NCBI GenBank assembly: GCA_023384575.1
Contig: JAHDVP010000038.1
Span: 1 to 54,625 of the forward strand
Reading direction: 5' to 3'
Length of the DNA stretch: 54,625 nucleotides
Origin: Acidobacteriota bacterium
Lineage (GTDB): Bacteria > Acidobacteriota > Vicinamibacteria > Vicinamibacterales > JAFNAJ01
Both the position numbers and the translations under genes were made by a program. Positions 13,138 through 22,222 of the stretch are shown piece after piece. The stretch's first letter is position 1; every line of letters starts with the position of its first letter. The notes beneath the pieces were generated by a model. The model did no database searches and had not been told where the DNA came from. It worked only from the letters and a program-made list of their open reading frames with translations.

Positions 13138-13932
13138 ATGAACGAGGTGACCGACCAGGACATCCAGCCCGACGCGCCGTCGGTGGACCCGACGCCCGGC
13201 GAGGCCGACGCCGCCCGCCCGTTGCCGCCGGCAGCGGCGGACGCGGACGCGGCTCCGCCTTCCCCCGATCAGGTGCCCGACGATCTCAAGGCGATCGTCG
13301 AGGCCCTGATCTTCGCCTCGCCAGACCCGCTGTCGGTCAAGGCGCTCCGCAAGCTGCTGCCCGACGAGCCGGCCGAGCTCGTCGATCTCGCCGTCGCCGC
13401 GCTCGGCGCGCAGTACGACCACCGCGGCGGCCTGCAACTGGTGGAGGTGGCCGGTGGCTTCCAGATCGTCACGCGCCCGGAGTTGCACGAGTGGGTCCGC
13501 CGGCTCTTCCACGAGCGGACGACGCACAAGCTCTCCGTCCAGGCCCTCGAGACGCTCGCCGTGATCGCCTACAAGCAGCCGATCACGGCCGTCGAGATCA
13601 CCGAGGTTCGTGGCGTCAACTCGTCAGGCGTGCTGGGGACGCTCATCGACCGGAAGCTGATCAAGATCGTCGGTCGCAAGCCCGTGGTCGGCCGGCCGTT
13701 CATGTATGCGACCACGCGCGAGTTCCTGATTCGCTTCGGCCTGCGCGACCTCACCGACCTGCCGAAGGTCGAGGACATGGCCGACGCGCTCGGCTTCGAA
13801 CCGCCGGCACTTGGCGATGCTGAGGCGACGCTGCCGTTTGATGGCATTGTCGACCCGGCAGCGCCGGAGACGGCCGACGGCAGCGTGGCCGCCGACGAGG
13901 AGGACGGTGGTGAGGCCGACAGGGAGGGCTGA
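13138..13932 (+). CDS. scpB: Segregation and condensation protein B
   Basis: A 264-aa protein with an acidic, Pro/Ala-rich N-terminal extension (about 1-45) before the tandem winged-helix ScpB core: AIVEALIFASPDPLS, then SVQALETLAVIAYKQPIT and EVRGVNSSGVLGTL. ScpB dimers bind ScpA and stimulate condensin. ATG 13138 follows a GAGAGAGG purine tract serving as ribosome binding site. The 110-nt gap after scpA has no recognised feature. The 3' end overlaps the rluB start by 23 nt, giving an scpA-scpB-rluB order conserved in many bacteria. Confidence 0.95.
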   Translation: MNEVTDQDIQPDAPSVDPTPGEADAARPLPPAAADADAAPPSPDQVPDDLKAIVEALIFASPDPLSVKALRKLLPDEPAELVDLAVAALGAQYDHRGGLQLVEVAGGFQIVTRPELHEWVRRLFHERTTHKLSVQALETLAVIAYKQPITAVEITEVRGVNSSGVLGTLIDRKLIKIVGRKPVVGRPFMYATTREFLIRFGLRDLTDLPKVEDMADALGFEPPALGDAEATLPFDGIVDPAAPETADGSVAADEEDGGEADREG

Positions 13933-14686
13933 GCGGCGCGCCGACGAGCCGCGCGGCGGTCTCCGGCTGCAGAAGATCCTCGCGAGCGCCGGCGTGGCGT
14001 CGCGCCGAACGGCCGAGGCCCTGATGGCCGAAGGCCGCGTCACGGTGAACGGCGACGTGGTCACCGCGCTCGGCACGAAGGCCGACCCGGCGCGCGACGT
14101 GATTCGCGTCGACGGCCGCCGGATCCAGGCGGCCGAGCCCCTCCGGTACATCCTCCTGTCGAAGCCGAGGGGCTACGTCACCACGCGCCGCGATCCGTTC
14201 GGCCGCAAGACGGTGGTCGACCTGGTGAAGGCCGTGACCGAGCGCGTGAACCCGGTGGGCCGCCTCGACGTCGACTCCGAAGGGTTGCTGATCCTGACCA
14301 ACGACGGCGAGCTCGCCGCGCGGCTCACGCACCCGCGACACGCGATTGAGAAGGTGTACCACGCGAGGGTGCGTGGCGTGCCGTCGCGCGACGCGCTCGC
14401 GCGTCTCGAGCGCGGCGTCGTGCTCGATGGCCGTCGCACCGCCCCGGCCACCGTGCGGCTGGTCAAGGCCTTCACGCGCGGTGGCCGCGAGGAGGCGCTC
14501 GTCGAATTCACGCTGCACGAGGGACGCAACCGGCAGGTGCGACGGATGTGCGAAGCCATCGGGCATCCCGTCCAGCGCCTCACACGCGTGCGGATCGGCC
14601 CGATCGTCGACCCGGACATCAGGCCGGGGTTCTGGCGCGAGCTCACGGCGCGCGAGGTGCGCCTGCTGCAGCAGGCGGCGGGATAG
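13910..14686 (+). CDS. rluB: rRNA pseudouridine synthase (RluB/RsuA family)
   Basis: A 258-aa protein. An N-terminal S4 RNA-binding domain (LQKILASAGVASRRTAEALM) is followed by the pseudouridine synthase domain, with catalytic Asp in GRLDVDSEGLLILTNDG and the C-terminal EGRNRQVRRM block. It likely isomerises a 23S rRNA uridine near the peptidyl-transferase centre. The start is GTG 13910, chosen because AGGAGG (13898-13903) is 6 nt upstream, inside scpB; no ATG fits. The TAG stop is followed after one base by the CAGGCNN heptamer array. Confidence 0.94.
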   Translation: MRPTGRAERRADEPRGGLRLQKILASAGVASRRTAEALMAEGRVTVNGDVVTALGTKADPARDVIRVDGRRIQAAEPLRYILLSKPRGYVTTRRDPFGRKTVVDLVKAVTERVNPVGRLDVDSEGLLILTNDGELAARLTHPRHAIEKVYHARVRGVPSRDALARLERGVVLDGRRTAPATVRLVKAFTRGGREEALVEFTLHEGRNRQVRRMCEAIGHPVQRLTRVRIGPIVDPDIRPGFWRELTAREVRLLQQAAG

Positions 14687-14687
14687 A

Positions 14688-14736
14688 CAGGCGACAGGCT
14701 GCAGGCTTCGGGCGACAGGCTGCAGGCTACAGGTTC
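14688..14736 (+). repeat. CAGGCNN heptamer array (7 units) after rluB
   Basis: Seven consecutive 7-nt units with consensus CAGGCNN. Variants are CAGGCGA, CAGGCTG (twice), CAGGCTT, CGGGCGA, CAGGCTA and a degenerate CAGGTTC. The array begins 1 nt after the rluB stop codon. A longer array of the same units lies in inverted orientation at 15247-15344, on the other side of the four-helix-bundle gene. The interval 14737-14839 shows only a short possible remnant (see findings). Confidence 0.85.
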
Positions 14737-14839
14737 ACCCCGAGCCACGGCCACCGACTGACCACGAGGAGCACACGCTCCAGGTGTGTTGTCCGGAGTG
14801 GAGTCCACCGCGTGGCAGCGAAGTTGCACCAGCTGCGGC

Positions 14840-15205
14840 ATGCCGCGTGACCCACACAACCTCGAGGTGTTCCGTCTCGCACACGAGCTGGCGCTCGAAG
14901 TCTACCGAGCCACGGAGTCGTTGCCCGCAGCGGAGCGATTCGGCCTCCCTGCCCAGATGCGACGGGCTGCGGTCTCCGTTCCTGCGAATCTGGCCGAAGG
15001 CTCGTCACGCCGCCGCACCCGCGACTACCAGCGGTTCATCGAGATCGCGCTCGGTTCGGCCGTCGAGCTTCGGTATCTGCTCGACCTGACGAGAGACCTG
15101 GGACTCCTGCCTCCAGAGGCGTTGGCAATTGGCAGAAAACGCAGCGAGCATGTCGTGCGGTCGTTGCACCAACTACAGCGTGCGGTCGCGAGCTTCTCGT
15201 CCTGA
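14840..15205 (+). CDS. Four-helix-bundle protein (S23 / 23S rRNA intervening-sequence family)
   Basis: A 121-aa all-helical protein starting with MPRDPHNLEVFRLAHELAL and containing the family block FGLPAQMRRAAVSVPANLAEGSSRR and a C-terminal helix ending in LHQLQRAV. This matches the four-helix-bundle family first described from intervening sequences in 23S rRNA genes. Related folds form barrel-like pentamers that bind nucleic acid, as in the Avd accessory protein of diversity-generating retroelements. Here the gene is neither in an rRNA gene nor near a reverse transcriptase. It sits alone between two inverted CAGGCNN arrays, which suggests a small mobile or repeat-associated unit; the function is unknown. 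No clear Shine-Dalgarno precedes the ATG. Confidence 0.85.
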   Translation: MPRDPHNLEVFRLAHELALEVYRATESLPAAERFGLPAQMRRAAVSVPANLAEGSSRRRTRDYQRFIEIALGSAVELRYLLDLTRDLGLLPPEALAIGRKRSEHVVRSLHQLQRAVASFSS

Positions 15206-15246
15206 GGCCGATACCCCAGCCGCGCCGTTCCGGTCCTCGTTCCAGC

Positions 15247-15344
15247 CCGAAGCTTGCAGCCTTCGGCCTGTAGCCGCCTGCAGCCTGTCGCCGGCAGCCT
15301 GTAGCCGGCCGGCCTGTCGCCTGCAGCCTGTCGCCTGTCGCCTG
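15247..15344 (-). repeat. CAGGCNN heptamer array (about 14 units), inverted relative to the first
   Basis: Read on the minus strand the array starts directly after the TAG stop of the hydrolase gene (complement 15345-15347). It runs through about 14 units: mostly CAGGCGA and CAGGCTG, with CAGGCCG, CAGGCGG, CCGGCGA, AAGGCTG, CAAGCTT and CGGGCTG variants and two irregular spacers. It is in opposite orientation to the array at 14688-14736, so the pair forms loose terminal inverted repeats around the four-helix-bundle gene. Both arrays share a TT-CGGGC junction (left 14707-14713). Confidence 0.85.
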
Positions 15345-16490
15345 CTACCGTCTCAGCACCTCCGCCCAGAACGCGATGAGGGCCACGATGTCGTCCACCC
15401 CCGCCGAGCGGTCGACCTCGGCGTGGGTGATGAGCGGCGTCACGAGCAGGCGAACGCGAGTCGACCGTTGCAAGTACGCGGCGAGCATCGTCGATTCGAC
15501 GGCGGGGACGACGTTGTCGTCGGTCCCGTGGAGCAGGTAGACGGGCGTCACGGGTGGCCGTGAGCGCTCGGGTGAGAGCGCGGCATCCATGCTCACCCCG
15601 TCGACGACCGGCAGCAGTCGCGGGCCGAGCGTGGCGACGTCGCGCGCGTTGACGAGGCGAAGCAGCGTGCGTGCCGGCTCGGCCAGGGTCGCCTCCATGG
15701 CGCGGGCGCGCGCGAAGACGTCCGCCGCCCGTGCCTTGTCCGTCATGTCGAGGTGGGACGCGTGGAGGAACGTGCGAATCCCCTCGCGCAGGCCATCGAC
15801 CTGGTCGGGCGGAACGAGCCGGGACACGGCGTTCATCAGGATGACCGCCACGCCGTAGTCGTGCGGCGGCCGCTTCCAGCCGCTTGGCTGAATCCCGGTG
15901 CAGAGGTAGCGCAGCACGCGGCCGAGGTCGCCGTGGCCACCAAACGACAGCGTGAAGGCCAGACGGTTGTCGAGCGACGGTCTGCCGGCGGCGACGATCG
16001 AGAGGCCGCCCGAGAAACTGATGCCGACGAGGCCGACCCGGCCATCGGGCGCGTACCGCGGCTGGCCGGCCAGCCACACGGCGACGTCCTCGATCGCGTC
16101 GGGCAGCGCCGGCGTGATGCCATAGTCGAGCAGGTCGGGGAGTTCGGGCGTGAGCACGACGAGGCCGCTCGCCGCGGCCTGGCGGGCGAGGCCGACGAGG
16201 CGGAACTCGTCGATGCCCTCGGCGTGCACGCCGGGCGTGAGCACGATCGCGCGGGTCACCGTGCCGTCTGGAACGTACACACGCGCGCGCAGCGCACCCC
16301 GACGCGTGGAGACCACGAGATCGGCCGTCGAGAACGAGCGGGCACCCAGGCCAGCGAGGCGGCTCGCGACGGGACCCTCGAGGCCGGTGACACGCGCGAC
16401 GAACGCCGCGGCGCGCGCGTACGGCCGCAGGCCGATCGAGCCCGTCACGACGAGCAGGGCGACGGCGATGAGTACGAGGCGGCGACGCAT
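15345..16490 (-). CDS. Alpha/beta hydrolase (dienelactone hydrolase-like), membrane-anchored or secreted
   Basis: A 381-aa protein with an N-terminal hydrophobic segment (about 5-20) that may be a signal anchor. The alpha/beta-hydrolase nucleophile elbow reads VGISFSGGLS (G-x-S-x-G), an acidic residue follows in LLHGTDDNVVP, and the late His is in PLITHAEVD, consistent with a Ser-Asp-His triad. The substrate is not inferable; dienelactone hydrolase or esterase-type activity is the usual annotation. Its stop codon abuts the heptamer repeat array, and it is divergent from cmk with about 80 nt between starts. Confidence 0.82.
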   Translation of the reverse strand: MRRRLVLIAVALLVVTGSIGLRPYARAAAFVARVTGLEGPVASRLAGLGARSFSTADLVVSTRRGALRARVYVPDGTVTRAIVLTPGVHAEGIDEFRLVGLARQAAASGLVVLTPELPDLLDYGITPALPDAIEDVAVWLAGQPRYAPDGRVGLVGISFSGGLSIVAAGRPSLDNRLAFTLSFGGHGDLGRVLRYLCTGIQPSGWKRPPHDYGVAVILMNAVSRLVPPDQVDGLREGIRTFLHASHLDMTDKARAADVFARARAMEATLAEPARTLLRLVNARDVATLGPRLLPVVDGVSMDAALSPERSRPPVTPVYLLHGTDDNVVPAVESTMLAAYLQRSTRVRLLVTPLITHAEVDRSAGVDDIVALIAFWAEVLRR

Positions 16491-22193: not shown

Positions 22194-22201
22194 GCTGACC
22201 A

Positions 22202-22222
22202 CAGGCCACAGGCGACAGGCCG
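22202..22222 (+). repeat. Three CAGGCNN heptamers after the acyl-CoA dehydrogenase gene
   Basis: CAGGCCA, CAGGCGA and CAGGCCG in tandem, starting 8 nt after the stop codon at 22191-22193 and pointing the same way as the upstream gene. There is no four-helix-bundle gene and no inverted partner within the following 126 nt, which otherwise hold only the GNAT ribosome binding site. Confidence 0.65.

Follow-up and report, generated by a model that had tools for sequence, protein, structure and literature searches.

The window (the whole stretch of 54,625 nucleotides analysed here) carries, flanked by genes for a pseudouridine synthase and a hydrolase, a 658-bp unit that we interpret, with a probability of roughly 0.6, as a cassette: an S23 gene with its own inverted arms of heptameric repeats, located in a gene–gene junction, constituting one evolutionary object and representing a widespread class, for which we infer a mechanism below. 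The cassette is probably selfish. In our best reading it is a relative of the intervening sequences that encode S23 within 23S rRNA, sited instead between protein genes, and the REP-like arrays dispersed in genomes are its derivatives. No earlier description of an S23-heptamer cassette was found in the open-licence literature; one may exist elsewhere.

Table 1. Features of the cassette, its neighbours and a solitary array in the window.
Feature	Position	Strand	Remarks
Left neighbour, RluB/RsuA-type pseudouridine synthase (S4 + PseudoU_synth_2)	13811..14686	+	
Whole cassette, 658 bp	14687..15344	+	hairpin with the S23 gene inside, closed by the paired arms
Left heptamer array, 7 units	14688..14736	+	begins one base past the rluB stop codon
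S23-type gene (23S rRNA intervening sequence protein, TIGR02436)	14840..15205	+	four-helix bundle, 121 aa
Right heptamer array, about 13 recognisable CAGGCNN units	about 15246..15344	-	two phase slips
Right neighbour, alpha/beta hydrolase	15345..16490	-	weak peptidase S9/S15 match, under Pfam cut-offs
Solitary short array, about 3 CAGGCNN units	22195..22220	+	just past the stop of an acyl-CoA-dehydrogenase-like gene

The gene enclosed by the arrays was classified by profile searches. Matches to PF05635 (106.5 bits, E=1e-30; Pfam cut-off 33.8) and to TIGR02436 (96.7 bits, E=8.6e-28; NCBIfam cut-off 24) place it in the S23 family by the curated cut-offs of both Pfam and NCBIfam, and its nearest solved structure is 2gsc_A (XCC0516; phmmer E=2.6e-20, residues 5-110), an S23 protein whose pentameric state is taken from PMC4990558. 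In Pfam only PF05635 was matched, and identity as a Y1/HUH transposase was discarded. As originally predicted, the unit has neither transposase nor reverse transcriptase: no transposase, recombinase or reverse transcriptase was found between the arms, where S23 is the only reading frame with a recognised family, which rules out a transposon with an encoded recombinase.

Oppositely oriented CAGGCNN arrays, framing the S23-type gene and adjoining the stop codons of rluB and the hydrolase, had been predicted from the letters of the window, and this layout was confirmed: the left array follows the rluB stop codon (14684-14686), and the right one abuts the complement of the hydrolase stop codon (15345-15347), the two flanking genes being convergent. 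Other details had been drawn too regularly. The seven units on the left (CAGGCGA, CAGGCTG, CAGGCTT, CGGGCGA, CAGGCTG, CAGGCTA and CAGGTTC) had been counted correctly, but the fourteen or so claimed on the right were reduced to the number in Table 1. At the threshold used, the window has no period-7 runs besides these two arrays. The claimed strictness of the period fails in the right array, which slips phase around 15270 and at 15301-15312; likewise, several units are degenerate and depart from the supposedly near-invariant CAGGC, with CGGGC and CAGGT occurring in the left array. When up to 2 mismatches were allowed, triple CAGGC at 7-nt spacing was counted 16 times in the window, mostly within the two arrays, versus 0.43 expected from shuffles. 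Folded as RNA, the unit (664 bases) formed a single hairpin closed by its arms, with z=-4.66 (20 shuffles). The solitary array, which has no S23 nearby, is a dispersed copy of the heptamer of the window cassette.

That S23 genes elsewhere would be accompanied by heptamer arrays, and that these would be inverted, was borne out by a strong and specific association. From the same order, 72 S23 loci were fetched, each oriented on its S23 gene; related loci were sought with a single S23 protein as query, and a cross-phylum set comprised 80 S23 loci from named genomes of Acidobacteriota, Gemmatimonadota, Planctomycetota, Alpha-, Beta- and Deltaproteobacteria, Chloroflexota, Bacteroidota and others. 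Many of the genomes compared are draft MAGs. A period-7 array lay within 350 bp of S23 in 49 of the 72 same-order loci and in 71 of the 80 cross-phylum loci, versus 1 of 30 PIN-domain control genes from the same relatives (Fisher, p=4e-10 and p=1e-17, respectively), some counts being swollen by orthologous loci, notably those of the Rhizobiales nuoC–nuoD group. Across the 72 loci, period-7 arrays numbered about 2-4 per kb up to 200 bp from S23, their density dropping mostly to 0.05-0.5 per kb beyond, and no comparable enrichment around S23 was seen in same-order loci for periods 5, 8, 10, 11 or 13. Where two arms were present, they were inverted in 29 of 31 same-order loci (p=5e-7; the exceptions are L091 and L093) and in all 43 cross-phylum loci (p=2e-13). 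About a third of the S23 genes of the order, including most of the NIVEG subfamily, had no detectable arrays.

The distribution of S23 is patchy: it was present in 42 of 60 relatives and in 98 of 199 genomes of the phylum, at 0 to 17 copies, and the single-protein query found no S23 relatives in phage records and viral contigs. On cyanobacterial plasmids, S23 with heptamer arms was found in several cases, at cas6/cas4, at cas10/cmr3 and between two ribonucleotide reductase genes. At three such plasmid loci (L240, L244 and L248) S23 lies between cas genes with its own repeats on both sides; the reported link between 23S_rRNA_IVP and CRISPR loci may thus be a case of hitchhiking.

The two arms of a locus have a heptamer in common that is private to that locus and differs even inside one genome. 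Arm-arm heptamer similarity in the same order was 0.635 versus 0.440 in shuffled loci, and loci within one genome were no closer to each other (0.43) than loci of different genomes (0.45), so that genome-specific heptamers were rejected for the S23-flanking arrays. Of the two arms, the upstream one is rich in G when read on the S23 sense strand, and duplexes of the arms have energies of -22 to -144 kcal/mol. In the loci tested, the order of unit variants was mostly not conserved between arms, indicating that precise arm pairing is not strongly selected and that the arms have one word in common, not exact text. This word follows the protein: at non-orthologous loci, closer S23 proteins had closer heptamers (Mantel r=0.35, 0 of 1000 permutations), with r=0.342 after correction for GC and r=0.195 inside the order alone, and the correlation still held without orthologous pairs and, in one test, without alphaproteobacteria. 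Such co-variation implies that the S23 gene and its arms travel or evolve together.

Junctions were compared across relatives, with genes named by inspecting the terminal parts of the adjacent reading frames. The rluB–hydrolase junction varies: it is empty in the family member G002, where the two genes abut, it holds arrays and no S23 in G014 and G059, and in G028 it holds S23 in the opposite direction with no arrays detected. In another genus, nine genomes were compared. There, G197 has full cassettes at pdhA–pdhB, clpP–clpX and scpB–rluB; G225 has a hairpin of the same heptamer without S23 at scpB–rluB and a short remnant of the same heptamer at pdhA–pdhB, and at clpP–clpX almost nothing (19 bp) is present in G095. 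At rpsG–fusA a full cassette occurs in G218 and a same-heptamer hairpin without S23 in G158. Some relatives of the same genus carry, at those junctions, hairpins built of other words. Full, arms-only and empty junction states all exist. Among the loci compared, no insertion between near-identical strains was caught and no target-site duplication was defined; target-site duplication was rejected as the origin of the arrays, since the arms are inverted, not direct. Further cassettes are hosted by nuoC–nuoD in Rhizobiales, carA–carB in Ramlibacter and ruvA–ruvB. The arrangement nuoC–S23–nuoD is common to several Rhizobiales species and looks like long vertical inheritance, which speaks against the reading as a mobile cassette.

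Some loci showed additional traits. The scpB–rluB cassette of G197 (L409) lies just upstream of rluB, and that of the window just downstream of rluB. At rpsG–fusA, L418 (G197) and L404 (G095) have hairpins of 8-nt-like repeats (GCAGAGAC, ACAGAGAA), not heptamers. L002 and L003 (G000) and L053 (G015) have in common a divergent gene upstream of S23, with about 70-81% DNA identity and a 139-aa start without Pfam match; at L002 and L003 a (GCTCANN)n array follows S23.

Arrays are also dispersed away from S23 genes, and their abundance depends on S23 in the genomes sampled. Per 400 kb, 80 and 48 arrays were counted in the S23-positive genomes G006 and G018, versus 0 and 1 in the S23-negative genomes G040 and G021. 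Another 20 genomes, each represented by 20 kb, showed a modest contrast (8 arrays in ten S23-positive versus 2 in ten S23-negative genomes), so the effect on array abundance differs between genomes. S23 was present in all 13 genomes that had (CAGGCNN)4 arrays (p=0.006). In G018, 25 of 48 dispersed arrays match heptamers of its own S23 loci and 5 of 48 those of G006; over all genomes, 39% of 208 dispersed arrays lay above the 95th percentile of the other-genome null, a figure that is partly circular for G000, whose arrays were found via the heptamer itself, those of G006 and G018 having been mostly sampled blind. Most CAGGCNN arrays of the window's genome have no S23 alongside.

Period-8 arrays were also commoner in S23-positive genome samples. 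At L009, L017, L018 and L024 (G000) a CAGGCNN array is directly followed by a second word, (CCAACNN)n or similar, so that a single intergenic region holds consecutive arrays of different heptamers. At L007 (G000:C4 near 8262) a CAGGCNN array lies on both sides of an assembly gap (a run of N), indicating that arrays may break MAG assemblies and be undercounted.

The unit of the window had been described as a minimal one with heptamer ends, and this is supported by the association of S23 with arrays elsewhere and by the variable rluB–hydrolase junction. Its supposed mobility gains indirect support from the empty, arms-only and full alleles, from heptamers that follow the protein at unrelated sites and from the concentration of dispersed arrays in S23-positive genomes. 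The heptamers had also been proposed as possible binding or recombination sites; no recombinase was found. With neither a nuclease nor a recombinase encoded, any movement would have to rely on the host's replication, repair or reverse transcription. We envisage that the S23 pentamer would recognize its own heptamer arms, as a transcript hairpin or as single-stranded DNA, and that this protein-repeat pair would spread and keep the cassette and its S23-less derivatives, as RAYT does with REP. The arms would fold the transcript into an excisable hairpin, as in the S23 intervening sequences of 23S rRNA, and such excision would render insertion right after a stop codon inside an operon tolerable. 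Extended beyond the window, this tentatively points to an unrecognized class, present in many bacterial phyla, in which a nuclease-free pentameric four-helix-bundle protein would recognize a private 7-nt repeat and drive the birth, spread and turnover of arrays.

An explanation confined to RNA, compatible with the cassette interpretation and in itself possible if rather doubtful, would take the cassette as an intervening sequence of mRNA, with the arm stem cut by RNase III and the S23 mRNA released, the heptamers mattering only as easily made complementary arms. S23 is the protein encoded in 23S rRNA intervening sequences, as in Coxiella and Leptospira, which have complementary ends and are cut by RNase III (PMC4990558); the window unit folds as a whole hairpin, and at junctions such as pdhA–pdhB the arms directly adjoin the stop codon upstream and the start codon downstream. 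Cross-phylum S23 genes mostly read with both neighbours (47 loci ++ versus 11 --), but orientations were assigned here by a simple ORF caller and about 18 of the loci are orthologous nuoC–nuoD ones; in the same-order set the figures are 19 ++ versus 16 --, and the neighbours in the window converge. Moreover, precise pairing would keep the order of units, which is unconserved in most loci, and both the 7-nt tandem arms and the heptamer that follows the protein are left unexplained. The G-richness of upstream arms on the S23 sense strand would be accounted for if that strand were the functional one and the arrays acted as quadruplexes, as proposed for the GGGAATC arrays of Xanthomonas, and GGGNATC arrays do form quadruplexes in vitro (PMC4692102). 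This is very improbable here: many arms contain no G-tracts of three, such as CAGGCNN in the window and AAAAATC, GAATTCA and AATCGTA elsewhere, and as a general explanation it is refuted by the A-rich and CAGGC arms.

Two further alternatives were considered. The arrays could be independent, slippage-prone repeats in which S23 only inserts, or beside which it persists, and the abundance of S23-less CAGGCNN arrays in the window's genome and the arrays without S23 at the rluB–hydrolase junction of G014 and G059 agree with this. It is nonetheless unlikely, since 400-kb samples of two S23-negative genomes contain hardly any arrays, arms are inverted and built of one private heptamer, and even at unrelated sites this heptamer varies with the sequence of the S23 protein. 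Alternatively, S23 could be a resident host gene, not mobile, that regulates itself through the flanking arrays as operator or attenuator. Long-retained loci such as nuoC–S23–nuoD of Rhizobiales, where arrays are kept and keep changing on both sides, would fit, but the patchy distribution and variable copy number, the existence of empty and arms-only alleles, the very different operons acting as hosts and the dispersal of arrays away from S23 make this quite unlikely.

S23-heptamer cassettes probably represent a widespread, apparently undescribed kind of small selfish DNA that slips between genes. S23 proteins have been known for decades from many bacteria and their structures have been solved, and to our knowledge no function has been assigned to them; heptameric repeats have, as far as we know, been catalogued without a cause. 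The link between the two joins a protein family lacking a function to repeats lacking a cause. If correct, it would unify the heptameric arrays of cyanobacteria, Xanthomonas and Beggiatoaceae with 23S rRNA intervening sequences and with 23S_rRNA_IVP genes in cas loci, and CRISPR, nuo, clp and ribosomal operons would likely contain S23 genes as hitchhikers, not as functional partners. With the cassette, a small element that encodes no recombinase also becomes available for study.

Among known systems, REP/RAYT consists of a protein gene between inverted repeats, of which many copies are dispersed in intergenic space. The S23 gene of the window likewise has inverted repeats on either side, further copies of which are scattered over its genome; however, S23, a four-helix bundle, has no known catalytic residues, whereas RAYT is a Y1/HUH transposase, and the S23 repeats are 7-nt tandem arrays with several families per genome. 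Avd, from diversity-generating retroelements, is a related four-helix-bundle family whose profile matched the window S23 weakly (E=1e-4), but the 22.5 bits obtained fall far below the equivalog cut-off of 80, and the unit lacks a reverse transcriptase and a template repeat. Heptameric repeats are on record as GGGAATC and GGGGA(C/T)T in Xanthomonas and Nostoc (Rehm et al. 2015, PMC4692102), with about 70 inverted pairs in Xanthomonas and no mobile-element association reported, and as TAACTGA in Beggiatoaceae and cyanobacteria (MacGregor 2015, PMC4679880). They resemble the arrays described here in their period of 7, intergenic position, variable copy number and proximity to stop or start codons; the searched text of both papers contains no mention of S23, and a link to S23 may explain these heptamers. 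S23 genes have in turn been reported in cas loci as 23S_rRNA_IVP (PMC3936711) and in rRNA insertions of CPR bacteria (PMC11270868), with no link to heptamers in the text searched. Closest among known elements are the intervening sequences of 23S rRNA that code for S23. They have the same protein family, complementary ends that close a hairpin around the gene and a patchy distribution, and are regarded as selfish; the cassettes described here differ in lying in junctions of protein genes, the window unit not being located in an rRNA gene, and may also differ in their locus-private tandem heptamer arms and dispersed arrays of the same heptamer.
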